Of a DNA stretch of 64,000 nucleotides, positions 21,246 to 44,750 are shown piece by piece. The DNA is taken from NCBI GenBank assembly GCA_021155965.1, contig JAJNBJ010000013.1:1-64000 (forward strand), read 5' to 3'. Origin of the DNA: Flavipsychrobacter sp. GTDB taxonomy: Bacteria > Bacteroidota > Bacteroidia > Chitinophagales > Chitinophagaceae. The position numbers and the translations under genes are program-made. The stretch's first letter is position 1. The number at the start of each line of letters is the position of its first letter. The notes under the pieces are model-generated. The model was given only the letters and a program-made list of their open reading frames with translations, ran no database searches and was not told the origin of the DNA.

Positions 21246-21249
21246 ATAT

Positions 21250-26743: not shown

Positions 26744-27478
26744 ATGTCAGGGAATATACACATTGGTATATCTGGCTGGAGCTATTGGGACTGGAAAGGT
26801 GTTTTCTATCCGGAGTCAATGAGATCAACAGATTGGCTCTCTTTTTATGCCAAAGAGTTCGATACTACCGAGATAAATTCCAGTTTCTACCACATGCCCA
26901 GGCTAAAAACGGCAACTACCTGGGCAGATAAAGTTCCTGCCGGTTTTAAGTTTTGTCCCAAGATCAGTAAATACCTAACACACAACAAAAGGCTCAAAGA
27001 ACCTGAAGAACCCCTGCAACGCTTCTTCGAAGCCTTCTCACAGATCAAAGAATACCTCGGGCCGGTATTAATACAATTGCCCCCATCATTAAAGTTTGAT
27101 GCGGAGACAGTTCAATATTTCTTTGAGATATTGAAAACAGGATATAATGAATATCACTTTGCATTAGAGGCAAGGCACGCAACCTGGTTGGAGGCAGATG
27201 CAGCAAAACTGATGAAGCAATACAACATCGCTTGGGTCATATCACAATCCGGGGTAGACTTCCCATACCTGGAGCAGGTAACTGCCGATACAGTCTATAT
27301 CCGTTTCCATGGCCCGGGAAAGTTATACGCGTCATCCTATACCGATGAGCAAATGAAGGAGTACGCAGGGAAAATTAAAAAATGGGCAAAGAAGCATGAC
27401 GTATGGATATACTTTAATAATTGTTATAATGGAGTGGCTATTGAAAATGCCAATACGCTTAGGAAATACGTTAAGTAA
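26744..27478 (+). CDS. DUF72 (YecE-like) family protein
   Basis: 244-aa cytoplasmic protein of the DUF72 family, a TIM-barrel fold of unknown biochemical function. It begins with the hallmark GISGWSYWDWKGVFYP, followed by EINSSFYHMPRLKTATTWADKVPAGFKFCPKISKYLTH, LGPVLIQLPPSLKFD and a C-terminal VYIRFHGPG and IYFNNCYNG pair, all typical of the family. The length is normal. It lies six bases downstream of the lysine-rich protein gene, suggesting a two-gene transcript. Confidence 0.93.
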   Translation: MSGNIHIGISGWSYWDWKGVFYPESMRSTDWLSFYAKEFDTTEINSSFYHMPRLKTATTWADKVPAGFKFCPKISKYLTHNKRLKEPEEPLQRFFEAFSQIKEYLGPVLIQLPPSLKFDAETVQYFFEILKTGYNEYHFALEARHATWLEADAAKLMKQYNIAWVISQSGVDFPYLEQVTADTVYIRFHGPGKLYASSYTDEQMKEYAGKIKKWAKKHDVWIYFNNCYNGVAIENANTLRKYVK

Positions 27479-27898
27479 AACGGAGTGAAAAAGCTGGCCA
27501 GGTTTTTTGATCACCTTTTCCCGCTGAAACCTTTGCGAATACTGACAAAATTAATTTCTTGACGGTACTGAAACTGTACCGCGACGGTACAGTTTCAGTA
27601 CCGCCATGGTTTTTCAATTTTTTGGTGTGCTTCGCCATTCGGAACTTTACCGGCTAATAACATTTTTTACTATGAAATGCTGCTTTTTTACGAGTTGTTT
27701 TTCCACATATGTTACACAGCATAACTATTTATTTTTTCTTTTAGCCATAAGTTATTTTTCATACATCACGCATATATGTTTAATAAAATTAATTCAACTA
27801 TAAAATTATACATTATAAAAGAGGCTAATAACTATGAAATTTGTTAGCTATTTCGATATTTTTTACTATTTTACCGCTCTATTTTAAAAGCTAAGCTC
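27479..27898. other. Intergenic leader before the giant gene
   Basis: 420 bases holding the dispersed palindrome at 27563-27603 and, after it, an AT-rich stretch (about 27600-27890) that must include the promoter of the giant surface-protein gene. I could not fix a TTTG/TAnnTTTG pair. A 65-codon open frame at 27606-27803 in the AT-rich part has no support. Confidence 0.5.
27545..27652. repeat. Dispersed palindromic repeat, copy 1
   Basis: Two 19-bp units, CGGTACTGAAACTGTACCG (27563-27581) and its reverse complement (27585-27603), face each other across three bases and form a near-perfect 41-bp palindrome. The same 19-mer recurs at 52632-52650. Flanking matches, including CTTGA just before the unit on one side and (C)CGAACTTTAC-like sequence about 50 bases beyond on the other, extend the similarity to roughly 100 bases, so this is a dispersed element and not a chance hairpin. 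Confidence 0.7.
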
Positions 27899-30800
27899 AT
27901 GAGATTAGGACATCTATTCTTACAACTATCGTATTGTGAAAAAAATGTGAAAGGGCAACGGTTATTAAAGACCATTCTTTTTTCATTAATAATTGCATTT
28001 AGTGCGCCTGTATTTGGACAAACTTATAACCAGATCACTTTAGCTTCGGGCGTTACAACTATTGCAGGTGTTACGGTAACGGTATCGCCTTTCGGTGGTG
28101 CAACTGTAGCACCTTTTTGCGGTGGTAATGCTGACCCATATTTTACAAGCGGCGGTGGTGCCGGGTACACATATACATTTTCTTCGCCGGTTGCTTCTGT
28201 GCGCATTCCATCACAGTTCGGTGGTGGTGCGCCCTCAAGAGATTTCACCTATAGTATTAACGGTTCTTTTTATCCGATCACTGGTGCTAACATTATCGGC
28301 CCTACTACATCTGGATGTCATTTTAGTATGGCTACGGCATCAGGTGGGATACTTATAGATCCCGGTACTCCACAGCCAAGCGCAGTTGTTGAAATATCTG
28401 GGATAATTAATAGCGTGACCGTTGTGACAAACGGTTCCAGTGGTAATTGGTTCGGTATGTTTTTTGCATTGCCAGCGCTGTTTGACAATGGCACTTCTCA
28501 AAACCTGACAGTGTGTAAAAATTCAAGCGCCACTTCCATAAATTCAATGCTTGCAGCTTCAAATGGGACAGGAACATATACCTGGACAGTTGTTTCCGGC
28601 CCTGCAAATGGATCTTTAAGTGGTTTCCCAACTTCTGCTCCAGTCGGCACCAATGTCACTCCTACTGTCACAACTACCTATCAGCCTACATCTGGATTTT
28701 CCGGAACAGATGCCTTTACGATACAGGTATCCGATGGAACTTTTTCACAAAACACAACCATCAACGTTACCGTCAACCCAATGCCCATCACCGGCACATT
28801 AACTGTTTGTGAAGGATCAACAACTACATTAAGCAGCGCATCTCCGGGTGGCACATGGGCAAGCGCGGGCCCGGGTATCGCTTCTGTAGGTTCTGCATCG
28901 GGTATTGTAACGGGTGTTAGTGCAGGAACAGTTACTATCAGTTATGCTCATCCTTGTGGTGGAGTTGTTACTGCAGTTGTTACTGTAAATGCTACGCCAA
29001 CTCCTATAACAGGCTTTGCAGGCGTTTGTATTGGCTCAACAACAAATTTGGTGGCTGCAATGGGAGGGGGCACATGGTCAAGTGCATCTCCGGGTGTTGC
29101 TACTGTTGGTTCTGCCACAGGTACTGTCACCGGAGTAACTGCAGGTACTTCCGTGATAAGCTATACATTCCCTACCGGATGTTTCGCTGTACAAACCGTA
29201 ACGGTTAGCTCTTTGCCAACTGTATCATCAACTTCAGGAAATGTGGTTTGCGCCGGCACAAACAGTTCAGTATCTGCTACGCCATCAGCGGGCGCAACTA
29301 TAAATTGGTATAACGCTGCGGTAGGCAGTGGCTTTCTTGGTTCGGGCAACACGCTGGCTATCATATCTCCATCCGTAACCACTACCTATTATGCCGAAGC
29401 TTTTAATAACAGCACCAGTTCGCTGACCACAACATTTGCTGATAATAACGCCCAATCGGGTGTTGCATTTGATATTACTGTTTTAAATTCAATGAATCTT
29501 TCGAGCTTCGACCTGAGTACCATTGGAGGCACTTTTAATTTTGAAATATATTACCGTATTGGCACTTCTGTCGGAAATCAAACGAGTTCCTCCGGATGGA
29601 CTTTGCTTGCAACTCATTTGAGCAATTCCGCAAGCAGTCCCAGGAATTTGATAATTCCGGGTGGTGTAAATTTAAATGCTGGTCAGACTTATGGTTTTTA
29701 TGTTACAACAACCACTCCTACTTCTGGAAATGTGAGATACACGAATGGCACCACACTTGGTGCTGTGTTTTCATCAAATGCAGACCTGCAGATAAAGGAG
29801 GGCTACGGCATGACTTATCCTTTTGCCGCTTCGGGCTCCTTTTCTCCCAGGATACCAAACATTACAGCGCACTATGGATTAATTCCGATTTGCTCCAGTT
29901 CGTCAAGGTCTGCAGCTACATTAACAGTTAATCCAAACCCAGCCATCGCAGGTACACAAAGTGTATGTGTTGGGTTCACTACAACGCTCAGCAGTACCAC
30001 ACCCGGCGGCACTTGGACAAGCGGCAGCGGTAATGCAACCGTAGGACCAGCTACCGGTGTTGTTACTGGTGTAACGGCAGGTACTGCAAATATCACATAT
30101 ACGTTGTCAACAGGTTGTTTCTCATTTGTAACAGTTACGGTTAATCCAAACCCAGCAGCAATAGGCGGCCCAATGGCTGTTTGCGTTGGCCTCACGACAA
30201 CGCTCACAGACGCAACACCGAGTGGCACATGGAGCAGCAGCCACACCAGCGAGGCTACTGTGGTGCCAGGTACAGGTGTGGTTACGGGTGTATCGGCAGG
30301 TACTCCGTACATTTCGTATACATTATCAACAGGCTGTTTTGCAACGCAACAGATCACAGTCAATCCAAACCCTGTTGCCATCACAGGCAATACAAGCATA
30401 TGCCTTGGCTTTACATCAACGCTTACGAATGCCACGTCTGGCGGCACATGGAGCAGCAGTGCCTCTGGCACTGCATCGGTTGTTGCCGGTACAGGAGTTG
30501 TAACTGGTAACGCCGTTGGCACAGCAACAATTACGTATACAATATCAGCTACGGGTTGTATCAACACTACAGTGGTAACAGTTCAGCCTAATCCCGCTGC
30601 AATAGGCGGCACAACAAATGTGTGCGAGGGCTTGACAACTACCTTAACTAATGGCACCGGCGGCGGCACATGGAGCAGCAGCGATATTTCGAAAGCAACT
30701 ATTGGTTCAGCTTCCGGTACAGTTACCGGTGTTCTAGCCGGTACGCTAACTATCACCTACATGCTGCCTACTGGTTGTTATGCAACTACTCCATTCACAG

Positions 30801-33800
30801 TTAATACTACACCTGTTGCAATTACAGGTACGGCTGTTGTATGTGTAGGTTCAACAACTACGTTGAGCAATGGCACAAGCGGCGGCACATGGAGCAGCAG
30901 TGCGCCTGCTACAGGTTCAGTGGGGGCAACTACAGGTATAGTTACCGGCGTTTCCGCGGGCACAGTAACGATCACATACCTGATGTCTACAGGCTGCCTC
31001 AACACACTGGTGGTAACAGTAAACCCTCTGCCTGCTGCTATTGGCGGCACAACGAATGTATGTGAAGGATTAACTACAACATTGACAAACGGATCACCGG
31101 GCGGTACCTGGACAAGCAGCAACCCAACTTTGGCAAGCATAGGTTCTGCCAGCGGAACAGTAACGGGTAATCTTGCAGGCACTGTTAATATTACTTATAC
31201 ATTACCTACAGGTTGTATTGCTACAACGCCATTTACAGTTAACCCCACACCGGCTGCAATAACCGGGGCGTCGTCAGTTTGCGAAGGATCAACAATAACA
31301 TTGACTGATGCTTCCTCAGGTGGCACGTGGACAAGCAGCAATGCAAATGCATCTGTTGGTCCGGCTACAGGTATAGTAACAGGTGTTACGGCTGGCACTT
31401 CAACCATTACTTATACTTTACCGGCAGGTTGCACTGCGGTAAAAGATATTACCATTCATCCAACTCCTGCAGCCATTGCAGGTGCAAATACAGTTTGCGT
31501 TGGCCTCACCACTACATTGACAGATGGCACAGCAGGTGGTGTATGGACCAGCAGTAACCCCGGACAGGCCACTATTGGTTCTTCATCTGGGTTAGTAACA
31601 GGTTTAGCTACCGGAACTCCCACAATGAGTTACACATTACCGGCAGGTTGCTATGCTGTTCATCCAATGACGGTTAACCCAACACCTGCTGCCATATCAG
31701 GTACGTTTGTTGTATGTGTTGGTTCTACTACCACACTCACAGATGTAACCGGTGGTGGTACATGGAGCAGCAGTAATTTAAGCCTTGCTACCGTGGGCAC
31801 ATCTTCAGGCGTTGTAACAGGTGTTGCCGCAGGCACACCAACGATTACCTATACCCTTGCAGCCGGTTGTATAGCAACGCAACAAATTACCGTAAACGCG
31901 GTACCGGATATTACCAACTTCACTTCGCCAACTGCGCTCGATCCATGTCTTGGCAATGGCATTGCAGTTAATGTTAATTCCACAACGCTTGGTACTGCAA
32001 CATTTACAATCACTTATAACTTAAGTGGCGCTAACTCCTCTACAGCAAATACAGCAACGCTCACTATGGGTGCAACTACGGGTACCTTTAATATCCCTGC
32101 ATCCTTATTGACCAATACAGGTTCTACTACTGTTACTATTACGGCTATTACCAACTCATTGGGCTGCACAAGCTATCCATCCAGCAGTAACACGGCAACG
32201 TTTAACGTTAACCCGTTGCCTACACAATATACAGTGTCTGGTACCGGCAGCTATTGCTCTGGTGGGGCAGGTCTCCATGTGTTCCTGTCTAACTCAGTTG
32301 GCGGTGTAAGCTATCAGTTGTATCATAATGGATCACCCGTTGGCAGCCCGGTTGCAGGTACATTCTCTGCAATTGATATGGGCGCGCAAACAGCAGCAGG
32401 TACATATACTATTATAGCTACAAACACAACCACTACCTGTACAATGAATATGATAGGTAGTGCAATAATATCTATCGACCCATTGCCAACAGCATTTGCT
32501 GTGACTGGCGGCGGCAGCTATTGCGCAGGCAGCACCGGTGTTACTATTGGCCTCGCAAGTTCGCAAAGTGGTGTTAGCTACCAGCTATGGCTGAGTGGTT
32601 CGCCGTCGGGCAGCGCCATTTCCGGCACAGGCGGTGCTATCAGCTTTGCGCCAAGTACTTCACCTGGTACATATAATGTGGTTGCTACCAACACAACTAC
32701 AACTTGTACTAATAATATGACAGGCACAGCTACAGTTACCATGAACCCGGTGCCGGCAGGTATTACCGGAACTCAAACAGTCTGTGTTGGGTCAACAACT
32801 ACTCTTGCCAGTGCAACTTCCGGAGGCACGTGGACAAGCGTAAATATGGCAGCGGCTACCGTTAATTCTACATCAGGGGTGGTTACGGGTGTTGCAGCAG
32901 GTACATCTGCCATTAGTTATACTTTACCTACTGGCTGTGCAACTGCCGCAATTGTTACTGTTAACCCACTGCCCGCAGCTATTGCAGGTGCAGGTACAGT
33001 TTGCGTTGGTTCCACAATGGCTTTGACCAATCCAACAGGTGGCGGTCTGTGGAGCAGCAGTAATACTACAGAGGCTGGAATAGGTTCAACCTCAGGCATT
33101 GTAACAGGGGGCGCCGCAGGTACTCCTACAATTACTTACACATTGCCAACAGGTTGTATTGCTACAGCAGGAATAACAGTTAACGCAACTCCCGCTGCTA
33201 TTGGTGGTACGCCGGTTGTCTGTGTTGGCGCTTCCACATTATTAACGAATACATTGCCGGGTGGTACATGGAGTAGCAGCAGTATAACTTTAGCTACTAT
33301 CGGGTCTGGTACTGGCATTCTTACGGGTGTTGCAGCAGGTAACCCTGTAATTACATATATAGTAGCAGGCTGTAGCACTACAGTTGTTGCCACAGTTAAT
33401 CCAAATCCTGCTGCAATTGTTGGAACACCTAATGTGTGCGAAGGTCTTACAAGGACACTGACTAATTCTACCACAGGGGGTAACTGGTTCAGTAGTAATA
33501 TTAGCCTTGCAACTGTAGGATCCACTACCGGTATAGTTTCGGGTGGCTCTGCAGGTACGTTGAATATTAGTTATGTATTGCCAACTGGCTGTTTTAGCCA
33601 GGTGCCATTTACTGTTAACATTACACCAGCGCCAATTTCCGGATCAACTGCTGTATGCGTTGGGTTAACTACGACATTGACTAGTGCTCCAGGCGGCGGC
33701 ACATGGAGCAGCAGTAATGTTGCAGTAGGCACGATCGGGGCTGCTACAGGTATTGTTGGAGGTGTAAGCGCGGGCCCGGTAACAATGACCTACACATTGT

Positions 33801-36800
33801 CGGCAGGCAGTTGCTTCGCAGTTTATACAATGACAGTTAATCCTAATCCGGCTGCTATTGCAGGTGCGTCATCTGTTTGTATCGGTTTTAGCACTACAAT
33901 GACGAATGCTACAACAGGTGGCTCATGGAGCAGCAGCAATGCTACTGTGGCTACAGTTACTAGTGGTGGGGTAGTGACCGGGGCCGGTTCAGGAACGGCT
34001 ACAATTACTTATGCACTGCCTACAGGATGTATCGCAACCAAATTGATCACGGTTAATCCAAATCCTGCAGCTATATCGGGTGCGTCTACCGTATGTGTAG
34101 GTTCGTCTACATTATTTATGAATGCCACAAGCGGTGGTACCTGGAGCAGCAACAACACGCTTTGGGCTACCGTAGGTTCTTCTACAGGTATAGTTACCGG
34201 CCAGGGCGCCGGCGTCCCCACGATAAGCTATACCTTATCTACAGGATGCTATGCTACAGCTCCAATTACAGTTAATCCTCTTCCTTCAGCTATCGTAGGG
34301 CCTTCTACAATGTGTACAGGCCAAACCACCACTATAACTAATGCAACAAGTGGCGGTACCTGGAGCAGCAATAACCTGGTTGTGGCCATAGTTGGTTCGT
34401 CAACAGGTATAGTGAATGCACTTACGGCTGGTACAGTGGTGATGTCTTATACGTTGCCGACGGGTTGTTATACTACATTGCCTATAACGGTTAATGTTCA
34501 GCCTGCAGCTATTACCGGTGCATCGTCGGTATGCAATACTTTCAGCACTACATTAAGTGATGCAACCGCTGGCGGTACCTGGACAAGCAGTAATGCTACT
34601 ATTGCCTCTATTGGCAGCAGTTCAGGTGTTGTGAACGGAAACTCTGTAGGTACTGTAACTATTACGTACACAATGCCCGGAGGCTGTGCTTCGCTGTGGC
34701 CATTTACAGTTAACCCTATGCCTGCGAGCATTGCCGGCCCTACAGCGGTTTGTGTAAGTTCTTCTATTACATTAACAGATGTAACAGCTGGCGGCACATG
34801 GAGCAGCAGCAATAGCACTTTGGCTTCAATAGGTTCTGCAAGCGGCGTTGTGAACGGTAATTCAGCGGGAACGGTAACTATAACATATATGTTGCCCGAA
34901 GGCTGTTACGTTACCTATCCAATAACCGTTAACCCACTGCCGGCATCAATAGGTGGTGTTCCTGTTGTATGTGTCAATGCAACAACTACTTTGACCAATG
35001 CAACCGGCGGCGGTACCTGGACAAGCAGTAGTATTGCTGTTGCAACAATAGGTTCTTCTTCTGGTATAGTAACCGGTATAACTGCCGGCAACCCAACATT
35101 TACATATACTATTCCTACCGGCTGCTACGTGACAATAGCCGGAACTGTTCATCCATTACCACTGGCTTATTCTGTTACAGGTGGTGGTAACTATTGTTCT
35201 GGTAGTACAGGCGTTACCGTTGGCCTGAGTGGTTCTAATACGGGTATTGATTACCAGTTGCTGCTGAGTTCTTCGCCTGTTGGCGGCGCAACGGCAGGCA
35301 CAGGTTCGTCCCTCAACTTTGGCTTGCAAACCGGCGCCGGAACCTATACTGTGCAGGCAACTAATACAATAACTGGTTGCAGTGTATTGATGAGTGGAAG
35401 CGCTTTAGTTACGGTCAATCCGGTACCTACTGCATTTACTGTTTCATCCGGTGGCAGCTATTGCGCAGGAGGCTCAGGTGTTAATATTACTTTGTCCAGT
35501 TCTCAAGGCGGTGTAAGCTATCAATTGTTCCTGGGCGGTGCACCAACCGGTACGGCGGTAGCTGGTACAGGAGGCTCAATTAGTTTTGGCAACAAAACCG
35601 CCGCAGGGGTTTATACCGTTGTGGCTACCAATACGCTTACCTATTGCACCAATAGCATGACCGGTTCGGCAGTTATTGTTGTTAATCCGTTGCCAACTAA
35701 TTATTCAGTTACAGGTGGCGGGGCATATTGTATAGGTGGTGCCGGCGCAACAGTGGGGCTAAGCAGCTCAGATGTTGGTATTGACTACACATTGTACCGC
35801 GGCGGCGTGGCAACAACCACAACAGTTTCAGGGACCAGTGCGGCTATATCATTTGGTTTGCAGACAACCACTGGTACATATACTGTAGTTGCAACCAACA
35901 CAATTACGGGTTGTACGAATACAACTACAAGTAGTGTGGTTGTTACTACAAATCCATTGCCAAATGTATTGACAATTTCAGGCGGTGGCGCATATTGTTC
36001 TGGCGGCACCGGTGTTCCGGTTACACTCACTGGTACTTCACAACTGGGTGTAAATTACCAGTTATATTATATGGGTACTGCATTAGGCAGCCCAGTAGCG
36101 GGAACCGGCACAACCGGTCTTAGCTTTGGTATACAGACAGGAGTGGGTACTTATACGGCTGTTGCCACAGGCGCTATTACTACTTGTACAGTTAATATGG
36201 CTGGTACAGTGACAGTTACTACCAACCCATTGCCAACTGTTTATACTTTTAGCGGCGGAGGTCCAATTTGCGCGGGCGGCCCGGCTGTTGCACTTAATTT
36301 AAGCGGTTCTGATATCGGCACTGATTATTATACTTTATTAGGAGGAACTCCGGTCGCAACGACTCCTGGCGACGGAAATCCGCTTAGCGGCACTTCTTCA
36401 ACCGCCGGTTTCTATACAGTAAGGGCTGTGAATAGCTTCGGATGTATAGCTATGATGTCAGGTAGTGCAACAATTACAATTAATCCGTTACCAAACCTTT
36501 ATACAGTTACCGGCAGCGGCAGCTATTGTGCCGGTGGGTCAGGCCTTAATGTGGGCTTGAGCAATTCTCAGGTTGGTGTCAATTACCAGCTTTGGTTAGG
36601 TGGTTCAATGGTTGGTACACCGGTGGCAGGTACTGGCGCAACGATCAGCTTTGGCCTGCAAACAACAACAGGTACCTACACTGTGATAGCTACGGACGCT
36701 GCAACATTATGTACAAGAACTATGACAGGTTCTGCGCTAATAACAACTAATCCATTACCAGCGGTTGAAATTATGACTGGCGGTGGTAGCTATTGTTCAG

Positions 36801-39800
36801 GTGGTGCAGGCGTGCCGGTAGGCCTTGCCGGTTCGGTTAGTGGTATCCAGTATCAGTTATATAATGGTGGTACCCCAGTTGGTTCACCGGTTGCAGGCAC
36901 TGGCAGTACGCTCAGCTTTGGGTTAAAGACTGTGCCGGGAGTTTATACTGCTATAGCCACCAATACGGTTACTGCATGTAGCAGTACAATGTCAGGCAGT
37001 ATTACTATAGTAGTTAATCCGTTGCCTGCTGTTAATAATGTAACTGGTGGTGGTAGCTATTGCGCTGGTGGTGCGGGCCTGAGTGTTGGGCTTGATGGTT
37101 CATTGGTTGGGGTTACTTACCAGGTATATAACGGTGCAATACCGTCGGGCGCATCTATGCCGGGCACAGGCTTCGCCCTTGATTTTGGCATCAGGACCGC
37201 CGCAGGCACATACACAATAACAGCCACTGACGACGTAACCGGCTGCACAAGCATAATGACAGGTAGTGCGGTTATTACAGTCGATCCACTGCCCACAGTA
37301 TATACTATTACCGGCGGCGGCAATTATTGCACAGGCGGTACCGGCGTACATGTTGGCCTTTCTAATTCTGCGGTAGGTATCAGCTACCAGTTATTAATTG
37401 GTGGATCGCCTATAGGATCCCCGATGACTGGCACAGGTGCCGCGCTTGATTTTGGTTTACAGACTATGGCAGGTACTTATACAGTTGTTGCTGCAAATAC
37501 AGCAACCGGCTGTGTGGAAAATATGGCAGGCAGTGCAGCTGTGTCGGTTTATGCGCTTCCTTCAGTTTATACAGCAACAGGTGGTGGTAGTTATTGTATC
37601 GGCGGTTCAGGGGTTCTTGTTGGATTAAGCGGTTCAGATCCGGGTATAACTTATCAGTTATATACTGGTGGTTCTCCTGTAGGCGCTCCGGTTCCGGGTA
37701 CAGGATCAGGTATCTCGTTCGGCGCTCAAACGATCTCAGGTTTGTATACAGTTGTTGCAACAGATGATATCACTACATGTACAAATAATATGTCGGGATC
37801 TGCAAGCGTAGCTATCGATCCTCTGCCAACTGCTTATACGGTTACCGGTGGTGGTGGTTACTGCGCTGGAGGTGCCGGTGTACATATAATATTAAGCAAC
37901 TCTGATGTTGGTGTTGACTACCAGTTAATGAACGGTACATCCACCAGCGGCGCGCCGTTTGCAGGTGTTGGCGGCCCGCTTGATTTCGGTTTACAGACAG
38001 TAGGCGGCACTTATACAGTTGTTGCTACAAATACAACAACAAGCTGCACCAGCAATATGCTGGGTAGCGCTAATGTGTCTATCAACTCATTACCCGCATC
38101 ATTTACTGTAACGGGTGGTGGTTCATATTGTGCTGGTGGTACCGGTCATAATATAGGCCTCACAGGTTCTGCAGTAGGGGATAACTACCAGATATATGTT
38201 GACGGAACTGCCACAGGCCTCCCTGTTGCAGGCACAGGTTCTCTCCTCGACTTTGGCGTTTATGCTACACCGGGTGTATATACTGTTGTTGCTACAACTG
38301 TATTGACCGGATGTTCTGACAATATGCTGGGTACAACTTCGATCACTATCGATCCTTTGCCTAATATATATACAGTAACAGGCGGCGGCAGTTACTGCAT
38401 TGGCGGTTCTGGATTACATGTAGGGTTAGGCTTATCAGATGTTGGCGTTATGTACCAGCTTTACAGAGGTATATCAACAGTTGGTGGACCAGTTGCCGGT
38501 ACGGGCCTTGCGCTTGATTTCGGGGTATTTACTGCAGCCGGTATCTATACTGTTGTTGCTACAAATGCAATTACAGGCTGCATACAGAATATGGGTGGCA
38601 GTGTTACCATCAATATTAACTCACTGCCTGCAGTATTCACTGTAACAGGTGGTGGCAGCTATTGTGCAGGTGGGGCTGGTTTCCCGGTAGGACTGAGTGG
38701 GTCATCATTTGGTGTTGACTATCAGTTGTACAATGGCGGTACTGCCGTTGGCAGCCCAATGGCGGGTACTGGCTCTGCTATCAGCTTTGGTGTGATCACC
38801 ATTGCAGGCAATTATACGGTGGTAGCAACAAATCCAAGCACAGGTTGTTCAGAAAACATGACAGGCAGTGCAACGATCACAGTTAATCCGCTGCCCCTTA
38901 TATATACAGTAACAGGTGGCGGCAATTATTGTCCTGGCGGTTCTGGTGTGTACATTGGTCTGAGTGGTTCTAATACCGGTATTAATTATCGTTTAATGAG
39001 GGGGACGACACTTGTTGCTACTATGCCAGGCAACGACTCAACCATCGACTTCGGTTTACAAACCGTTGCTGGCACCTATACTGTTGTTGCTGTTGATGCA
39101 GCTTCATCTTGCAGCAGCAATATGACCGGCAGCGCTGTCGTAGTTATTAATGCACTGCCAACTGTTTATACGGTTACCGGTGGTGGTGGCTATTGTGCAG
39201 GTGGTATAGGGCTTCATGTCACATTAAGCGGGTCTCAGTCTGGTGTTAATTATCAATTATACAGAGATGGCACCGCTGTTGGTATATTGGTTGCAGGTAC
39301 CGGCTTCCCGCTCGACCTGGGTGTGCATAGCTTTGCTGGTACTTACACTATCAAGGCCATAAATGCCACTACTACTTGCACCTCAACAATGGCAGGTTCT
39401 GTGATAATAGTTATCAACCCATTGCCAACCTTGTTTACGTTGACTGGCGGTGGCAGCTACTGTTCAGGTGGCACTGCTCCGGATATAATATTGTCGGGTT
39501 CAACTGCCGGATTGCAGTATCAATTACATCGTGGTGGTTTGCCGGTTGGCACACCAATGGTTGGTACAGGATCGTCACTTAATTTTGGCCCTCAGCCAAT
39601 TGCTGGTTCTTATACGGTGATCGCTTCAGATATCGTTACCGGTTGTACTAGGACTATGACAGGCACAATAGTAGTGGCTATCAATGCGCTGCCAATTGCT
39701 TATTCAGTTTTTGGTGGTGGCAGCTATTGCTCTGGCGATGCTGGCGTCACTATATCAATGACCGGATCTGAAACAGGTGTAAGCTATGAACTGTACAGGG

Positions 39801-41587
39801 ACGGATTACCCACAGGCTCAGTATATGCCGGCATTGGTGGGCCATTGAGTTTTGGCTTGCAGACCATTGCTGGAGTATACACTGTTATGGCTGTGAATAG
39901 CACTACCAGTTGCTCACGTACTATGTTCGGCAGCGCTGCAGTTTCAATAAACGCGTTACCTGCATTGCATGCAGTTACAGGTGGTGGCAGCTACTGCTCT
40001 GGCGGAACAGGTATACCGGTTGGTTTAAGCAGCTCTCAATTAGGTATATCTTATCAGTTACGTATCGGTGGCTCAGCAACAGGTACTACCGTAGCCGGTA
40101 CCGGCGGTACGCTCAGCTTTGGCTTGCAAACAGCACCGGGCACTTATGATGTAATAGCTACTAATACATCAACAATGTGTACCAATGTTATGACGGGTTC
40201 TGTTTCTGTTGTGGTTAACTCATTGCCAACACCATATGTGGTAACAGGTGGCGGTAATTACTGTGCAGGTGGTACAGGAGTAAATATAGGTTTGGGCAAT
40301 TCTGATGCTGGTGTTGATTACCAGCTATATATGAGTGGTACTACAGTGGGCAGCCCTGTGCCAGGTACTGGTGGTTCTATCTCATTTGGCAGCCACACAA
40401 TGGCAGGCACTTATACTGTAGTTGCTACTAATACTGCCACAGGCTGCACAAGTAACATGGCAGGTACTGCAACTGTTGTTATAACACCAACTGTTGTACC
40501 TTCTGTTACTATCAACACAGGAGTGGGGGATACAGTTTGTACAGGCACTTCGGTTACATTTACAGCATTGACAACCGCTGGTGGCGGAAGTCCTTCGTTC
40601 CAATGGACCGTAAACTCTTCGCCAGTAGGTTCTGGCAGCAGCTATACATATACTCCATTGAATGGGGATGTTGTAGAAGTTATGCTCACCAGCAGTGCAG
40701 CATGCGCTACACCAGCTACTGTATCTGATGATGTAACAATGACCGTAAGGAACAACGAAACACCGGTGGTAACTATTACCGCAGCACCCGGCGATACAGT
40801 TTGCCAGGGTACAATGGTACACTATTCGGTATCGTCGTTATATGGTGGCACAGCACCGGTTTACAACTGGTATGTAAATGGTGCCCCGGTTAGCATTGCA
40901 TCATCTTCGTTCAGCTATGTGCCGGTGAATAACGATGTGGTATTTGTGAACATGAATAGTAATTATCTATGCTTGCTTGCACCATCGGCAACCAGCAACC
41001 ACATTGCTATGAAGGTAGAAACAACAGTTGCACCTTCGGTTACAGTTAATGCCAGCTATGGTACTTACATGGCAGGTGTGGTATATAACGATACGTTCAC
41101 TGCAGTAGTTTCGAATGGCGGCTTTAACCCGGTTTATCAGTGGTCTATAAACGGTGTTGCGGTTGTTGGGGCTACATCGCCAACATTGATAATGGCCAGT
41201 GTGAACAACGGTGATGCAGTTACCTGCGTCGTAGTAAATGGTAATACTTGCGGAACGTTCTCAGGCTCTGCCACAGTTGTTGTTAGCATAAATACAGTTA
41301 ACACACAAACAATTACTTCAATTACCGGGGACATCAGGCTTGTGCCTAACCCGAACAAGGGCGTATTTGTGTTGAAAGGTTCGCTGGGAACAATTGCGGA
41401 TGAGGATTGTACAATTGATGTTACTAATATGCTTGGCCAGGTGGTTTATAGCTCAGGTGTAAAAGTTCGTAATGGTGAAATTGATGAGCAGGTTAGCCTG
41501 GATAAAGCACTTGCCAATGGTATGTATATAGTAAATTTGCGTGCCGGTAGTGCAACTAAGGTGTTCCATATGGTAGTAGAACAATAA
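27899..41587 (+). CDS. Giant T9SS-exported repeat protein (4562 aa)
   Basis: Secreted or surface-anchored protein of 4562 aa. An N-terminal signal ends at about residue 41 (LLKTILFSLIIAFSAPVFGQ). Then come a unique region (41-294) and alternating blocks of two repeat families. Family A (about 73 aa, 22 copies) has a VCVGSTTTL...GGTWSSSN...ATVGSxTGIVTGV core like bacterial Ig-like domains. Family B (about 89 aa, 22 copies) has YTVTGGGSYCAGGxGV...YQLYxGG...AGTYTVVATN. Order: A2, unique Ig-like, A9, spacer, B2, A11, B20. Three further Ig-like units follow, then a T9SS type A sorting domain in the last 75-80 residues (VPNPNKGVFVLKG...NGMYIVNLRAG). Repeats are nearly free of charged residues. A surface adhesin or filament is likely; the ligand is unknown. 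A terminator follows directly. Confidence 0.95.
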   Translation: MRLGHLFLQLSYCEKNVKGQRLLKTILFSLIIAFSAPVFGQTYNQITLASGVTTIAGVTVTVSPFGGATVAPFCGGNADPYFTSGGGAGYTYTFSSPVASVRIPSQFGGGAPSRDFTYSINGSFYPITGANIIGPTTSGCHFSMATASGGILIDPGTPQPSAVVEISGIINSVTVVTNGSSGNWFGMFFALPALFDNGTSQNLTVCKNSSATSINSMLAASNGTGTYTWTVVSGPANGSLSGFPTSAPVGTNVTPTVTTTYQPTSGFSGTDAFTIQVSDGTFSQNTTINVTVNPMPITGTLTVCEGSTTTLSSASPGGTWASAGPGIASVGSASGIVTGVSAGTVTISYAHPCGGVVTAVVTVNATPTPITGFAGVCIGSTTNLVAAMGGGTWSSASPGVATVGSATGTVTGVTAGTSVISYTFPTGCFAVQTVTVSSLPTVSSTSGNVVCAGTNSSVSATPSAGATINWYNAAVGSGFLGSGNTLAIISPSVTTTYYAEAFNNSTSSLTTTFADNNAQSGVAFDITVLNSMNLSSFDLSTIGGTFNFEIYYRIGTSVGNQTSSSGWTLLATHLSNSASSPRNLIIPGGVNLNAGQTYGFYVTTTTPTSGNVRYTNGTTLGAVFSSNADLQIKEGYGMTYPFAASGSFSPRIPNITAHYGLIPICSSSSRSAATLTVNPNPAIAGTQSVCVGFTTTLSSTTPGGTWTSGSGNATVGPATGVVTGVTAGTANITYTLSTGCFSFVTVTVNPNPAAIGGPMAVCVGLTTTLTDATPSGTWSSSHTSEATVVPGTGVVTGVSAGTPYISYTLSTGCFATQQITVNPNPVAITGNTSICLGFTSTLTNATSGGTWSSSASGTASVVAGTGVVTGNAVGTATITYTISATGCINTTVVTVQPNPAAIGGTTNVCEGLTTTLTNGTGGGTWSSSDISKATIGSASGTVTGVLAGTLTITYMLPTGCYATTPFTVNTTPVAITGTAVVCVGSTTTLSNGTSGGTWSSSAPATGSVGATTGIVTGVSAGTVTITYLMSTGCLNTLVVTVNPLPAAIGGTTNVCEGLTTTLTNGSPGGTWTSSNPTLASIGSASGTVTGNLAGTVNITYTLPTGCIATTPFTVNPTPAAITGASSVCEGSTITLTDASSGGTWTSSNANASVGPATGIVTGVTAGTSTITYTLPAGCTAVKDITIHPTPAAIAGANTVCVGLTTTLTDGTAGGVWTSSNPGQATIGSSSGLVTGLATGTPTMSYTLPAGCYAVHPMTVNPTPAAISGTFVVCVGSTTTLTDVTGGGTWSSSNLSLATVGTSSGVVTGVAAGTPTITYTLAAGCIATQQITVNAVPDITNFTSPTALDPCLGNGIAVNVNSTTLGTATFTITYNLSGANSSTANTATLTMGATTGTFNIPASLLTNTGSTTVTITAITNSLGCTSYPSSSNTATFNVNPLPTQYTVSGTGSYCSGGAGLHVFLSNSVGGVSYQLYHNGSPVGSPVAGTFSAIDMGAQTAAGTYTIIATNTTTTCTMNMIGSAIISIDPLPTAFAVTGGGSYCAGSTGVTIGLASSQSGVSYQLWLSGSPSGSAISGTGGAISFAPSTSPGTYNVVATNTTTTCTNNMTGTATVTMNPVPAGITGTQTVCVGSTTTLASATSGGTWTSVNMAAATVNSTSGVVTGVAAGTSAISYTLPTGCATAAIVTVNPLPAAIAGAGTVCVGSTMALTNPTGGGLWSSSNTTEAGIGSTSGIVTGGAAGTPTITYTLPTGCIATAGITVNATPAAIGGTPVVCVGASTLLTNTLPGGTWSSSSITLATIGSGTGILTGVAAGNPVITYIVAGCSTTVVATVNPNPAAIVGTPNVCEGLTRTLTNSTTGGNWFSSNISLATVGSTTGIVSGGSAGTLNISYVLPTGCFSQVPFTVNITPAPISGSTAVCVGLTTTLTSAPGGGTWSSSNVAVGTIGAATGIVGGVSAGPVTMTYTLSAGSCFAVYTMTVNPNPAAIAGASSVCIGFSTTMTNATTGGSWSSSNATVATVTSGGVVTGAGSGTATITYALPTGCIATKLITVNPNPAAISGASTVCVGSSTLFMNATSGGTWSSNNTLWATVGSSTGIVTGQGAGVPTISYTLSTGCYATAPITVNPLPSAIVGPSTMCTGQTTTITNATSGGTWSSNNLVVAIVGSSTGIVNALTAGTVVMSYTLPTGCYTTLPITVNVQPAAITGASSVCNTFSTTLSDATAGGTWTSSNATIASIGSSSGVVNGNSVGTVTITYTMPGGCASLWPFTVNPMPASIAGPTAVCVSSSITLTDVTAGGTWSSSNSTLASIGSASGVVNGNSAGTVTITYMLPEGCYVTYPITVNPLPASIGGVPVVCVNATTTLTNATGGGTWTSSSIAVATIGSSSGIVTGITAGNPTFTYTIPTGCYVTIAGTVHPLPLAYSVTGGGNYCSGSTGVTVGLSGSNTGIDYQLLLSSSPVGGATAGTGSSLNFGLQTGAGTYTVQATNTITGCSVLMSGSALVTVNPVPTAFTVSSGGSYCAGGSGVNITLSSSQGGVSYQLFLGGAPTGTAVAGTGGSISFGNKTAAGVYTVVATNTLTYCTNSMTGSAVIVVNPLPTNYSVTGGGAYCIGGAGATVGLSSSDVGIDYTLYRGGVATTTTVSGTSAAISFGLQTTTGTYTVVATNTITGCTNTTTSSVVVTTNPLPNVLTISGGGAYCSGGTGVPVTLTGTSQLGVNYQLYYMGTALGSPVAGTGTTGLSFGIQTGVGTYTAVATGAITTCTVNMAGTVTVTTNPLPTVYTFSGGGPICAGGPAVALNLSGSDIGTDYYTLLGGTPVATTPGDGNPLSGTSSTAGFYTVRAVNSFGCIAMMSGSATITINPLPNLYTVTGSGSYCAGGSGLNVGLSNSQVGVNYQLWLGGSMVGTPVAGTGATISFGLQTTTGTYTVIATDAATLCTRTMTGSALITTNPLPAVEIMTGGGSYCSGGAGVPVGLAGSVSGIQYQLYNGGTPVGSPVAGTGSTLSFGLKTVPGVYTAIATNTVTACSSTMSGSITIVVNPLPAVNNVTGGGSYCAGGAGLSVGLDGSLVGVTYQVYNGAIPSGASMPGTGFALDFGIRTAAGTYTITATDDVTGCTSIMTGSAVITVDPLPTVYTITGGGNYCTGGTGVHVGLSNSAVGISYQLLIGGSPIGSPMTGTGAALDFGLQTMAGTYTVVAANTATGCVENMAGSAAVSVYALPSVYTATGGGSYCIGGSGVLVGLSGSDPGITYQLYTGGSPVGAPVPGTGSGISFGAQTISGLYTVVATDDITTCTNNMSGSASVAIDPLPTAYTVTGGGGYCAGGAGVHIILSNSDVGVDYQLMNGTSTSGAPFAGVGGPLDFGLQTVGGTYTVVATNTTTSCTSNMLGSANVSINSLPASFTVTGGGSYCAGGTGHNIGLTGSAVGDNYQIYVDGTATGLPVAGTGSLLDFGVYATPGVYTVVATTVLTGCSDNMLGTTSITIDPLPNIYTVTGGGSYCIGGSGLHVGLGLSDVGVMYQLYRGISTVGGPVAGTGLALDFGVFTAAGIYTVVATNAITGCIQNMGGSVTININSLPAVFTVTGGGSYCAGGAGFPVGLSGSSFGVDYQLYNGGTAVGSPMAGTGSAISFGVITIAGNYTVVATNPSTGCSENMTGSATITVNPLPLIYTVTGGGNYCPGGSGVYIGLSGSNTGINYRLMRGTTLVATMPGNDSTIDFGLQTVAGTYTVVAVDAASSCSSNMTGSAVVVINALPTVYTVTGGGGYCAGGIGLHVTLSGSQSGVNYQLYRDGTAVGILVAGTGFPLDLGVHSFAGTYTIKAINATTTCTSTMAGSVIIVINPLPTLFTLTGGGSYCSGGTAPDIILSGSTAGLQYQLHRGGLPVGTPMVGTGSSLNFGPQPIAGSYTVIASDIVTGCTRTMTGTIVVAINALPIAYSVFGGGSYCSGDAGVTISMTGSETGVSYELYRDGLPTGSVYAGIGGPLSFGLQTIAGVYTVMAVNSTTSCSRTMFGSAAVSINALPALHAVTGGGSYCSGGTGIPVGLSSSQLGISYQLRIGGSATGTTVAGTGGTLSFGLQTAPGTYDVIATNTSTMCTNVMTGSVSVVVNSLPTPYVVTGGGNYCAGGTGVNIGLGNSDAGVDYQLYMSGTTVGSPVPGTGGSISFGSHTMAGTYTVVATNTATGCTSNMAGTATVVITPTVVPSVTINTGVGDTVCTGTSVTFTALTTAGGGSPSFQWTVNSSPVGSGSSYTYTPLNGDVVEVMLTSSAACATPATVSDDVTMTVRNNETPVVTITAAPGDTVCQGTMVHYSVSSLYGGTAPVYNWYVNGAPVSIASSSFSYVPVNNDVVFVNMNSNYLCLLAPSATSNHIAMKVETTVAPSVTVNASYGTYMAGVVYNDTFTAVVSNGGFNPVYQWSINGVAVVGATSPTLIMASVNNGDAVTCVVVNGNTCGTFSGSATVVVSINTVNTQTITSITGDIRLVPNPNKGVFVLKGSLGTIADEDCTIDVTNMLGQVVYSSGVKVRNGEIDEQVSLDKALANGMYIVNLRAGSATKVFHMVVEQ
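28781..29212 (+). repeat. Repeat family A, block 1 (copies A1-A2)
   Basis: Two tandem copies of the 70-73-aa Ig-like repeat with VCEGSTTTL or VCIGSTTNL near the start and a GGTW core. They are separated from the next A block by a unique Ig-like and lectin-like segment (residues about 439-679). Confidence 0.85.
29936..31900 (+). repeat. Repeat family A, block 2 (copies A3-A11)
   Basis: Nine tandem copies averaging 72.8 aa (655 codons in total). Each opens with NPAAI, TPAAI or LPAAI, has a Cys in a VCVG/VCEG motif and a second Cys in an (PT/ST)GC motif, and ends with xTVNP. A 105-aa unrelated spacer follows (residues about 1335-1439). Confidence 0.9.
32216..32749 (+). repeat. Repeat family B, block 1 (copies B1-B2)
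   Basis: Two copies of the 89-aa family B repeat (LPTxYTVxGxGSYC...), inserted between two family A blocks. Their presence here shows the two families are interleaved and not simply concatenated. Confidence 0.88.
32750..35155 (+). repeat. Repeat family A, block 3 (copies A12-A22)
   Basis: Eleven copies averaging 72.9 aa (802 codons). They keep the GGTWSSSN core and the two Cys positions in most copies; A14 is slightly shorter and A20-A22 are the most diverged at the first Cys (VCNTF, VCVSS, VCVNA). Confidence 0.9.
35156..40489 (+). repeat. Repeat family B, block 2 (copies B3-B22)
   Basis: Twenty tandem copies averaging 88.9 aa (1778 codons). The consensus begins LPTxYTVTGGGSYCAGG, continues YQLYxGGxxVGSPVAGTG and FGLQTxAGTYTVVATNTxTxCTxNMxGS, and ends in VNP. 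B7 is the most divergent copy (GGGPICAGG, shorter loop). Confidence 0.9.
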
Positions 41588-41591
41588 GTTA

Positions 41592-41632
41592 TAAGTAATA
41601 GAGCGGATATTATATATGCGCTCTATTACTTA
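41592..41632 (+). terminator. Terminator after the giant gene
   Basis: A 14-bp perfect stem, TAAGTAATAGAGCG (41592-41605) with its complement (41619-41632), over a 13-base AT loop and followed within a few bases by ATTTTTTT. It lies four bases after the stop codon of the giant gene. Confidence 0.8.
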
Positions 41633-41873
41633 AACATTTCATTTTTTTATCTGTGATTAAATTATAGTAAAGGATTTTTGCTGATAGTGTATATGAAAAG
41701 AAAAAAACCTTACATTTGCGTATTAACGAATAGTTTACTAAATGAATAAGTCGTTATTTTCTGTATTATAAATGAAAATAGCTTCATATATTTATAGTCC
41801 CTATAAAATAATTATTTAATAAATTAAAAAGCTATAATACATTAAAGAGATAGTGTTTTATAAATATTCTTTT

Positions 41874-42173
41874 ATGAAAAAACTGTTTATTCTTTCTTCT
41901 GTCATCCTGATCGCTGGAATGTCTGTTGTTGGTTGTAAAAAGAAACCAACTAAAACTAATTGTTATGTTTGTCAGAGGTATAACCTGATCTATTCTCCGA
42001 TACATATTCAGTACAATCAGCCAAGGACATTAGTAGCGTTGGATACACTTTGTGGCAGAACCGATGAGTGGATACAATTATACATGGAGCAGCACAAAAC
42101 GCTTGACACAATTCCGACCGGCAACGATGTTATCCTCCTGAACCAGCGATCATCAATTTGTGAGATACAATAG
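41874..42173 (+). CDS. Small lipoprotein with CxxC, downstream of the giant gene
   Basis: 99-aa predicted lipoprotein, taking the ATG at 41874 (MKKLFILSSVILIAGMSVVGC, lipobox SVVGC); an in-frame ATG at 41853 would add seven residues ahead of the signal. The mature part begins KKKPTKTNCYVCQRYN, a CxxC motif, and ends with a Cys four residues from the end (SSICEIQ). No family is recognised. The next gene encodes a second small lipoprotein with a matching plan (NWYC near the start, Cys near the end). The pair follows the giant T9SS gene by about 290 bases and may be functionally tied to it; that is inference. Confidence 0.75.
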   Translation: MKKLFILSSVILIAGMSVVGCKKKPTKTNCYVCQRYNLIYSPIHIQYNQPRTLVALDTLCGRTDEWIQLYMEQHKTLDTIPTGNDVILLNQRSSICEIQ

Positions 42174-42210
42174 TATATTTAACTTTAATAAATAATACTG
42201 CCAGACAAAT

Positions 42211-42501
42211 ATGACCAAAGTTATTTTACCACTCATTGCCATAGTCGCACTTGCTTCCTGTCTGAAAAGATCTACAGCTAACCAGAAAAACTGGTATTGC
42301 GAAATATATGACTCGACAGTATCTAACATACCGTATTTTTCTTTTAATGGTATGAAAGTGACGAAGATGAAGTATGATGCAATTAATGAAAATGATATCA
42401 AGTTCATTATGAAGAAAAATACCTACAGGGATACTTTTTTCTTCAGGAATGATACCTTGGTAGAAAGATATTTCACAATGGGCTGCACACAGATCGAGTA
42501 G
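42211..42501 (+). CDS. Small lipoprotein, second of a pair
   Basis: 96-aa predicted lipoprotein with signal MTKVILPLIAIVALASC (lipobox LASC). The mature region opens LKRSTANQKNWYCEIYDSTV and ends MGCTQIE, the same early and late Cys placement as in the gene 37 bases upstream, although overall identity looks low. No domain is recognised. It converges with the LytTR regulator gene, whose stop lies five bases beyond. Probably cotranscribed with the upstream lipoprotein. Confidence 0.75.
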   Translation: MTKVILPLIAIVALASCLKRSTANQKNWYCEIYDSTVSNIPYFSFNGMKVTKMKYDAINENDIKFIMKKNTYRDTFFFRNDTLVERYFTMGCTQIE

Positions 42502-42506
42502 TGCAG

Positions 42507-43244
42507 CTACCAGCCCAGCAAGGTTTTTAATTTAGCCATCCCGGTTTTACTTACCATAACTTTTGCGCCACAGTGCAGTAATGCAATGTGGCTTTCTTTT
42601 TCATATGGCTCAATGCGCATAAGCTGTGTTACCGGAACAAGGTAAGAACGGTGAACCCTTACAAATTGTTGCGGATCCAGTGTTTGCTCAATATGTGCTA
42701 ACGTGCTTTTCTTAAGATAGCTGCCGTCTTTGGTTACTATTTTCACGTAGTCATCATTTGCCTCTATGTAAAAAATGTCTTGCGCCGGAATTATGCGGAT
42801 AAGGCCATTATCTTTCACTACTATCCTGTGCTGGTAGCCTTCATAAATATTATTCTCCAGCAGTGCATTTACCTGCGGTGCATCTTTGGCGGGTATATGC
42901 TGCAGCCATTTCTGGACCGCTTTATCAAAACGGTCTTTAACGATCGGTTTTAACAGGTAGTCAACAGCATGTGTCTCAAAAGCTTTCATGGCATATTCAT
43001 CAAATGCAGTAGTAAATATTACGGCGGGCGGGCTGTCCAGTAATTCCAGCATTTCAAAACCATTCAGCCTGGGCATTTGTATATCAAGGAAAATAAGGTC
43101 AGGGTTGTTTTCCTGTATCGCTTTGAAACCTTCAAAACCATCGCCACATTCGGCTACAACCTTTATCTGATTATAGTTTGACAGAAAAGTTCTGATCAGC
43201 TGCCTTGCCAATGGTTCATCATCTATCAGTATTGCTTTATACAT
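42507..43244 (-). CDS. LytTR-family response regulator
   Basis: 245-aa DNA-binding regulator of the LytR/AlgR type. The receiver (about 1-120) has acidic Asp8-Asp9, phospho-acceptor Asp54 in LIFLDIQMPRLNGFEML, Thr78/Thr79 and Lys99 in VDYLLKPI. The LytTR DNA-binding domain (about 140-243) shows IVVKDNGLIRIIPAQDIFYIEANDDYVKI and LDPQQFVRVHRSYLV. It overlaps the upstream kinase gene by eight bases, so the two are translated from one mRNA. Its targets are unknown. Confidence 0.96.
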   Translation of the reverse strand: MYKAILIDDEPLARQLIRTFLSNYNQIKVVAECGDGFEGFKAIQENNPDLIFLDIQMPRLNGFEMLELLDSPPAVIFTTAFDEYAMKAFETHAVDYLLKPIVKDRFDKAVQKWLQHIPAKDAPQVNALLENNIYEGYQHRIVVKDNGLIRIIPAQDIFYIEANDDYVKIVTKDGSYLKKSTLAHIEQTLDPQQFVRVHRSYLVPVTQLMRIEPYEKESHIALLHCGAKVMVSKTGMAKLKTLLGW

Positions 43245-44268
43245 TTTGCTGCGGTATTTTTAAAATAGTGGTAAAAGTTTCTTCATCGTTTTTTGTTTCG
43301 AGCAAGTCGGTACGGGCATAGAGTAGGTACAGCCGCCTGCGTATGCCTTCCAGGCCAAAGCCTGTCCCTTTTGGTGGCAGTAAGTTACTATCGTATGGAT
43401 TAGTAATTGTGATAACAAGCATATTGGCCTCCGAGATGATGCTGATGTCTATTTTTACTGTGCCTGTTTTTCCATACAACCCGAATTTTATTGCGTTCTC
43501 CAGTATTGGTTGTAATAAAAATGGTGGTAGGGTGGTGGAAGGGCTGCAGTCATTATCAATTGCAACCTGCAGCCTGTCTCCAAACCGTACTGATTCTATG
43601 GCCAGGTAAGATTGTATATAAGCTAGCTCATCTTTTACAGGTAACGTGTCTTCTGACTCTCTTTGTACCGAGCTTCGTAAAAAGTCTGAAAGTTTCCCTA
43701 TCATTTCCTGTGCTTTGTCCGGCGATATCATGATCAATGCATTGATAGAGTTAAGGCTGTTATACAAAAAATGGGGTTGCAGTTGTTGCCTCAGCTTAAA
43801 AAGCTCAGCTTCTTTCAGCAATACAGAAGCGTCAGTTTGGTTCTGAAAGCGGGTATCCAATGCATTGATGTTCTTGCGCAATGCACTGTTTGTTGCCATC
43901 CAGCTATTCAATACCCAGATGAACAGGAAGCGGATAGGCATGGTATGTTTTACCCATAGTTTGTATTCTTCATTTTTTATTACCCACCATTTCAGTATTT
44001 CCCAGGTGCCTACTGCTGTTACAACACTAATAAACAATGCAATTAGGACGGCATACGGATATATAGCAGCCGTAGTAGGGTAGGTTCTGATCAGCAGCAC
44101 GATACCCCATATCGATAAGCTGATCATCGCTGTGCTGCAGGCACCATCTGATAATGAAGGTCCCCACCCGAAGTGGCCTATGACATGGAATATGTAAACA
44201 TGGATGGCCAGCAACAGAAGTACAAGCACCCAAATTTTCCAATGAATATTTTTTTTAGTAGGAAGCAA
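43237..44268 (-). CDS. LytS-like histidine kinase (His_kinase/PF06580 type)
   Basis: 343-aa membrane kinase partner of the LytTR regulator. Four transmembrane helices are predicted between about residues 10 and 125, with no large extracytoplasmic domain. A coiled linker leads to the His_kinase domain with phospho-acceptor His166 in LRQQLQPHFLYNSLNSINALI, followed by the ATPase domain with PFLLQPILENAIKFG and GTGFGLEGIRRRL. The last eight bases overlap the regulator gene. The small lipoprotein pair next door is a possible but unproven target. Confidence 0.95.
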   Translation of the reverse strand: MLPTKKNIHWKIWVLVLLLLAIHVYIFHVIGHFGWGPSLSDGACSTAMISLSIWGIVLLIRTYPTTAAIYPYAVLIALFISVVTAVGTWEILKWWVIKNEEYKLWVKHTMPIRFLFIWVLNSWMATNSALRKNINALDTRFQNQTDASVLLKEAELFKLRQQLQPHFLYNSLNSINALIMISPDKAQEMIGKLSDFLRSSVQRESEDTLPVKDELAYIQSYLAIESVRFGDRLQVAIDNDCSPSTTLPPFLLQPILENAIKFGLYGKTGTVKIDISIISEANMLVITITNPYDSNLLPPKGTGFGLEGIRRRLYLLYARTDLLETKNDEETFTTILKIPQQNV

Positions 44269-44413
44269 TCTTGTTAATGATAAAGAATATGTATCGATAC
44301 ACCCCGGAATGAAGTTAATGAAAGAATCCTATGAAGTGTATAAACCGGGAGTTATGAGGAAAAATATCCTATACCAAATAGCGATCTGGTCGTCGGGTTA
44401 ATGGCTGCGGTTG

Positions 44414-44716
44414 TTAGCGTGCGTTCAGCCACAATGGTGCTGGCAATATTTCTGCCTCGCGCATCATTGAAAAGAGAAGTCCGCCGTTTTTCAGCTCTAT
44501 TGGCTGCAGGTCTTTAACGGCAAGCATACGCCAGCAAACAGTGCGGCCCTGCCTGTCTTTAAATGTAGATTCTTCTTTCCTGCCAGTCTCTCTTGCTTCC
44601 GCCAGTGCCTGCTCTGCTGAATCAGCATAAACAAGCCTCCATTGCTCTTCGTATTGGTCTGTAGGCATGCCTTCACACTCTATACGGTAAATTATTTGTG
44701 CGGTATATGCGCTCAT
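44414..44716 (-). CDS. DUF4288-like small protein
   Basis: 100-aa cytoplasmic protein. The pattern AQIIYRIECEG...DQYEEQWRLVYADSAEQALAEARETGRKEE followed by a GRTVCWRMLAVKDLQPI strand matches the DUF4288 family, whose function is unknown. It lies 34 bases downstream of the LiaF-like gene on the same strand and is probably cotranscribed. No signal peptide or membrane segment is seen. Confidence 0.8.
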   Translation of the reverse strand: MSAYTAQIIYRIECEGMPTDQYEEQWRLVYADSAEQALAEARETGRKEESTFKDRQGRTVCWRMLAVKDLQPIELKNGGLLFSMMREAEILPAPLWLNAR

Positions 44717-44750
44717 AAACGCTCGTTTTTATTCCCTTTCAGGATGCCTT

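Follow-up and report, generated by a model that had tools for sequence, protein, structure and literature searches.

A giant Flavipsychrobacter gene predicted to encode a type IX-secreted adhesin with a constant two-family Ig-like stalk and exchangeable heads

Periscope proteins (SasG, Aap, Rib, and intimin-family BIg arrays) are surface stalks of tandem, often immunoglobulin (Ig)-like domains; according to PMC9704523, their repeats are highly identical to one another, and related strains differ in how many they carry. SprB and RemA of Flavobacterium johnsoniae are large gliding adhesins that are exported by the type IX secretion system (T9SS). Grappling hook protein A (GhpA) of Aureispira sp. 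CCB-QB1 (PDB 9flp, 9fls, and 9flu-9fly) forms heptamers. Here we describe a giant gene that can be compared with all of these. It lies at 27899-41587 on the + strand of a 64,000-nucleotide stretch of contig JAJNBJ010000013.1 from Flavipsychrobacter sp. (GCA_021155965.1), and we refer to this whole stretch as the window. The frame encodes 4562 amino acids (aa) plus the stop, with no internal stop codons. GhpA is the closest solved candidate relative (16-20% identity). Like Periscope proteins, the window protein has a stalk of tandem domains, but its units average 53-55% identity (the best pair in DNA is 68% identical), and their number is constant between species. Like SprB and RemA, it appears to be a large surface adhesin exported by the T9SS, but it has a type A tail and no SprB repeat (among hits in Pfam and NCBIfam down to E ≤ 1).

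We propose that this protein is a T9SS-exported cell-surface adhesin: a rod of constant length with exchangeable tips. From the gene comparisons below, we put the probability of this reading at about 60%. The Ig-like units, which have a cysteine pair each and a proline at each joint, would form a stiff rod, very roughly 150-200 nm long at ~4 nm per Ig domain. The N-terminal head would bind a ligand, perhaps glycans if the head is like a carbohydrate-binding module (CBM), and a change of head would retarget the cell with its reach unchanged. The protein would be exported by the T9SS, its tail cut off, and its C-terminal end held at the outer membrane. A sequence-only reading of the window had correctly described a giant protein in which two repeat families are arranged in blocks and a T9SS tail follows; the type A sorting domain (41339-41584) scores above cut-offs: 28.8 bits for TIGR04183 (cut-off 23), and 29.1 bits in the whole protein or 35.7 bits alone for PF18962 (cut-off 27). 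The genome encodes the SprA translocon (TIGR04189, 2440 bits) and at least 150 T9SS tails (all 150 that were scored matched, of 230 candidates). Type A T9SS proteins are linked to anionic lipopolysaccharide (PMC9143113).

From the N to the C terminus, the protein is made up of A2, an insert, A9, a 105-aa spacer, B2, A11, B20, three Ig-like domains, and the T9SS tail, where A and B are the repeat families and the number gives the units in a block. Anchor motifs place A units at 2 + 9 + 11 sites and B units at 2 + 20 sites, and profile hidden Markov models reproduce these counts and their order, so the 22 A and 22 B units of the sequence-only reading hold up. Its claim that the units are diverged yet fixed in length does too: the spacing within blocks is 72-74 aa for A and 87-90 aa for B, and mean protein identity among units is 54.9% (A) and 52.5% (B), which is far above chance. 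Both methods place A1-A2 at 28781-29218, A3-A11 (the A9 block) at 29939-31906, and B1-B2 at 32222-32755; A12-A22 (the A11 block) are at 32756-35161 and B3-B22 (the B20 block) at 35162-40495. Each family has a conserved pair of cysteines. In A, C10 is invariant and C61 is nearly so; in B, C12 and C73 are both invariant. All 22 A units match Ig_NUP210_16th (PF25354) at E ≤ 0.01, with 214 bits for the whole protein, which is higher than the score for Big_2 (PF02368; 188 bits against a cut-off of 22.8, with 21 of 22 units at E ≤ 0.01). Family B leans towards Ig_7 (PF19081), which 15 of 22 units match at E ≤ 1, but single units are weak (best 6.7e-6). The families had been called unrelated; comparing their profiles gave no detectable sequence relation (probability 16%), although both are Ig-like. 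The protein has ~50 Ig-like domains, and in a Pfam scan of the protein no match spans the block plan. The structure prediction for an A-B pair is good (predicted local distance difference test, or pLDDT, of 93.8).

Two parts that had been described as unique are not. The 240-aa insert (29219-29938, residues 441-680) starts with an Ig_7 domain (PF19081, 47.5 bits), followed by an unnamed domain; the best Ig_7 stretch of the protein is residues 440-506, which is outside the B units. B20 is followed by a cassette of three Ig-like domains (40496-41338) plus the tail, and each of the 35 genus genomes holds a relative of this cassette at E ≤ 1e-45. The first and second of the three domains are weak Ig_3 matches, below cut-off, and the third resembles the first. 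The spacer (31907-32221), which marks the family and was aligned in 13 rows, is weakly Ig-like (PF23664, 20.6 bits, below the cut-off of 27).

Below, W is the protein of the window gene, C37 is its paralogue from contig C37 of the same genome (G000), and the other G-numbers are genomes from the genus. Relatives were picked by hand, on similarity to the spacer or the tail. The spacer matches at E ≤ 1e-8 in 25 of the 35 genus genomes (W's own included), and 11 of the 20 stretches that were fetched by it have the intact plan. The other nine are three with two or three spacers and B25, two cut by a contig end, one with B2-A4-B21, and three with 2 or 6 B units. C37 (5284 aa) reads A20-spacer-B2-A11-B20-tail, which matches W's plan from the spacer on. 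With W, C37, and 11 more from seven congeneric genomes, there are 13 plan-bearing proteins in 8 genomes. A11 and B20 have the same count in all 13; B2-A11-B20 is present in 12, and the remaining one has B1 and 75 unassigned aa before A11-B20. From the spacer to the end, every one of the 13 measures 3221-3262 aa, and identity there is 51-89%. Judged by these gene comparisons, the proteins share a stalk with a fixed count of units.

In a midpoint-rooted tree, the plan-bearing proteins form two clades, split at 100/100 support, and G000, G011, G046, G049, and G045 each have one member in each clade. (A cut open reading frame, or ORF, from G044, L158, groups with clade 2 by unit identity.) The A block on the head side does vary: it has 8 or 9 units in clade 1 (9 in five of six members) and 20 or 22 in clade 2. 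Equal numbers of A and B units, which the sequence-only reading had stressed, are real in the window gene, but 22 = 22 is not a rule because totals differ among members of both clades. The A + B totals are 22+22 in three of the six clade-1 proteins (W, G046a, and G049b), 22+21 in G045b, and 21+22 in G011a and G044. No clade-2 member has 22+22: three have 31+22 and another three 33+22 (G047 is cut).

The units also correspond by position. Between W and G011a, z is 11.2 for B (15 of 20 best matches in place) and 6.0 for A11 (7 of 11); between W and G044, z is 11.3 for B and 6.4 for A; and against remoter members, W gives 2.0-9.3 for B and 0.0-5.6 for A. Over 78 pairs, z has a median of 4.2 for B and 3.1 for A. 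W and C37 correspond over 22 B units (z = 4.7) and over A11 (z = 3.4), so the C-terminal plan predates the duplication that separated them; the A9 block shows no positional correspondence (z = 0.8). The ratio of nonsynonymous to synonymous rates (dN/dS, by NG86) is 0.03-0.07 over seven parts for G011a/G044, 0.03-0.17 for G020/G045a, and 0.10-0.16 for the parts of W/G011a apart from the unrelated head and the spacer, for which dS could not be computed. By these ratios, the plan-bearing stalk, including B20, is under purifying selection. In B20, dS is 1.42 (G011a/G044) or 1.15 (G020/G045a), with dN/dS of 0.05 and 0.16, so silent sites are near saturation; the count has been kept over that distance while the tips changed.

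At the other end, W begins with a hydrophobic run that looks like an export signal in translation (27899-28018; both the signal and the start codon are putative), followed by a predicted jelly-roll domain resembling CBMs (28019-28468; head model pLDDT 80.5) and a Big_9/cadherin-like domain (28469-28780; PF17963, E = 6e-4, 21.0 bits, below the cut-off of 23.6). W, G011a, G044, and G046a represent one syntenic locus: a LytTR response regulator and a histidine kinase (42507-44268, - strand in the window) also adjoin the gene in G011a (L053), G044 (L054), and G046a (L056), at 83-86% and 66-72% identity. The heads of W and G011a have no BLAST match at 1e-4. The first head of G011a is a different domain with no Pfam match, and that of G044 is 92% identical to it. 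G046a has two glycine-rich ALK_LTK_GRD-like domains before the Big_9-like domain that it has in common with W; its head matches that of G011a weakly (~25%, with composition correction off). The insert is common to W and G011a (55%), and in G044 it is replaced by an unrelated glycine-rich insert that is 35% identical to part of the G046a head. The DNA of G011a and G044 (aligned over the first 4.0 and 4.3 kb) is 85% identical over bases 1-705, then there is a break, and then it is 79% identical from bases 1921 and 2200. G049b and G045b have FG-GAP and TIG domains at the N terminus. (The heads were scanned with Pfam except for G044, G011b, G020, G045a, and the G049b insert, and the G047 head is lost at a contig end.) As far as the genes tell, then, heads have been swapped on one kind of stalk, and N-terminal modules differ even in the closest pair.

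Several observations weigh against a constant rod with exchangeable binding tips. G045:C44 (9621 aa) has spacer-B2-A11 but B18, with no clear register and a different C terminus; B19, B21, B24, B25, and B33 exist among relatives; and, apart from B20, the arrays of at least eight B units in W's own genome have between 8 and 17. Some pairs lack correspondence (z = 0.0 for A11 of W and G046b, and 0.2 for B of C37 and G045b). Synteny was not found for clade 2, for G049b (3.3 kb downstream), or for G045b (less than 1 kb downstream). The model of W's head is middling, and a CBM-like fold is no proof of sugar binding. Finally, three clade-2 proteins (G011b, G020, and G045a) have an N terminus of just 149-161 aa, which corresponds to the Big_9-like half of the head of W; not every member, then, has a binding head.

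Among proteins with spacer-B2-A11 that could be read to the end, B20 is present in 13 of 14 and B18 in one (a comparison between species). ORFs chosen by the tail have B20 in 20 of 24 cases (the others have 33, 24, 21, and 19), mostly as a single B20 beside the cassette, and W's own genome has three further proteins of that form. There, B20 blocks are found in 5 of the 13 ORFs that have eight or more B units. Since relatives were picked by similarity, these shares are not a census. The spacer also recovered named loci, 11 of 49 with the plan, which are not independent of the genome set because they come largely from the same assemblies. Their records are of uncultured Bacteroidetes and one Sphingobacteriales assembly (for example LJ_bin-2831, AM_0832, and Umea3_bin-3336), which we take to be lake metagenomes. 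Across the order, B matched at E ≤ 1e-25 in 33 of 298 genomes (W's own included), and 14 stretches from outside the genus gave three ORFs with both families, none with the plan, and two stretches without a two-unit ORF.

The proteins with B20 fall into two groups. Positional correspondence with z > 2 holds for 77 of 91 pairs within group I (14 proteins) and for 171 of 231 pairs within group II (22 proteins carrying one B20 block). Between the groups, just 12 of 308 pairs have z > 2 (median 0.4; a few at 2.2-2.6). A common 20-unit ancestor for both groups is not demonstrated: averaged over the 308 pairs, the in-register diagonal has z = 1.9 over 20 units, falling to 1.1 when the end units are dropped, and diagonals out of register score as high. 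There may be an eroded signal of such an ancestor. With no detectable correspondence, either such an ancestor lies too far back to be recognised or the number 20 arose on two occasions. Compared with group II, the B19 relative fits at an offset of one, as though it lacked a unit on the head side (score 2.49), and the B21 relative fits with the opposite offset, less clearly (score 1.40). Two or three B20 genes stand side by side on one strand in G049:C26 (L142, L143), G045:C2 (L145, L146), and G011:C58 (L144); they are alike in tail type, and their N-terminal parts differ in length.

In DNA, the most similar pair of units in W is 68% identical, and mean agreement at third positions is 36-37%. 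No exact repeat exceeds 24 nt, compared to a maximum of 17-23 nt in 20 synonymous-codon shuffles, and Tandem Repeats Finder detected nothing in 27000-42500. An assembly artefact, by collapse or expansion of repeats, is therefore unlikely, as short-read collapse needs far longer identity than these units have, and eight genomes show the plan. The array had been suggested to grow by block recombination, but no unit of the stalk is a recent DNA copy, and the internal lag test for unit duplication was null for B20 (p = 0.69) and A11 (p = 0.27). Comparing the first A block with A11 yields a weak hint in clade 1 (p = 0.013 in one of four tests, without correction) and no signal in clade 2 (p = 0.77); apart from that hint, recent duplication of units or blocks in the stalk is unsupported.

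This divergence also bears on why the count is constant. The units may be too diverged in DNA to recombine, so that their number is fixed without selection on length; heads would be traded at one edge of the array, the interior of which is unable to change. The low identity and short exact repeats given above fit this explanation, as do the B19 relative and, less strongly, the B21 relative, and according to PMC9704523, variation in Periscope repeat number correlates with repeat identity in DNA. However, the A block on the head side does change in these genes (8/9 in clade 1 and 20/22 in clade 2), and 20 recurs in the second group without detectable correspondence of units. The first of these points is limited in that about three changes over ~4.8 substitutions per site (branch lengths summed by hand) are no significant contrast with none. 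We take this frozen history seriously while leaning against it. More tentatively, the repeat number could be a selected ruler: unrelated tips would be held at one reach by exactly 20 B units beside the anchor cassette, a number kept since before the family split or else reached twice. We consider selection for this length rather doubtful. If it were true, the surface system of the genus would pair a single standard stalk with a repertoire of interchangeable heads.

Surface proteins with tandem repeats are best known for varying in length, whereas here the count is kept between species and the tips are swapped. If length is selected, these proteins make it possible to ask directly what determines how far bacterial adhesins reach; if length is frozen, they show how long a 33-unit array persists without gain or loss of units. 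In either case they provide naturally occurring exchanges of the tip on one stalk, with which the ligands of these bacteria could be found.

The proposed adhesin can also be set against two other functions. One, which we think unlikely, is an oligomeric filament in the manner of the Aureispira grappling hook, in which several chains wind together as a long appendage and catch other cells. The phmmer match to GhpA has E = 6e-20 with strong composition bias, the fold match is non-specific, and the B profile alone fails to find GhpA. The protein could instead be a mobile adhesin that serves gliding, as SprB and RemA do, since it is giant, has a T9SS tail, and comes from a genome with SprA. A lectin-like head would suit RemA, which has a lectin domain (PMC11205867). 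But there is neither an SprB repeat nor a type B tail in the domain matches, and the ten neighbours that were scanned include no PorP/SprF-like match, so we consider a role in gliding quite improbable.

The sequence-only reading also presented the two-family plan as singular, which it is not. We list 27 repeat-bearing ORFs from stretches fetched from W's own genome, including W's (150 of 345 first-look candidates were scored), and 16 of these carry both families. The plan is a variant within the known class of giant Ig-repeat surface proteins and is not unique to the window gene. Relatives with the same arrangement do exist, but no description or name for the family was found in the literature searched (mainly open-access, preprints excluded). 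As for other origins and roles, a search with B1-B2 found nothing among phage records and a partial match, at 41%, to a single plasmid record; a phage or plasmid origin was rejected, as was an anti-phage system, for which PADLOC gave no match.

Other giant frames turned up in these searches. On contig C16 of W's own genome, at ~225.9-254.5 kb (L014, L015), a 9551-aa frame has 57 A and 12 B units and a T9SS tail, and its A pairs recur with gaps of ~345 aa. Giant frames that match the spacer or the tail cassette include G043:C10 (11279 aa), G045:C44 (9621 aa; A33 B21), G001:C357 (7863 aa; A34 without B), and G007:C56 (7207 aa).

No tRNA genes or Rfam matches were found in the window. The LytTR regulator and histidine kinase beside the giant gene might regulate it; together with a LiaF-like membrane protein they occupy 42507-45500 (- strand). 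At 18945-26268 (- strand), also near the giant gene, an Omp85-family protein is encoded beside a 1672-aa TamB-like protein, which makes a TAM-like pair. A second protein with a T9SS tail (667 aa) is encoded nearby, at 46634-48637.
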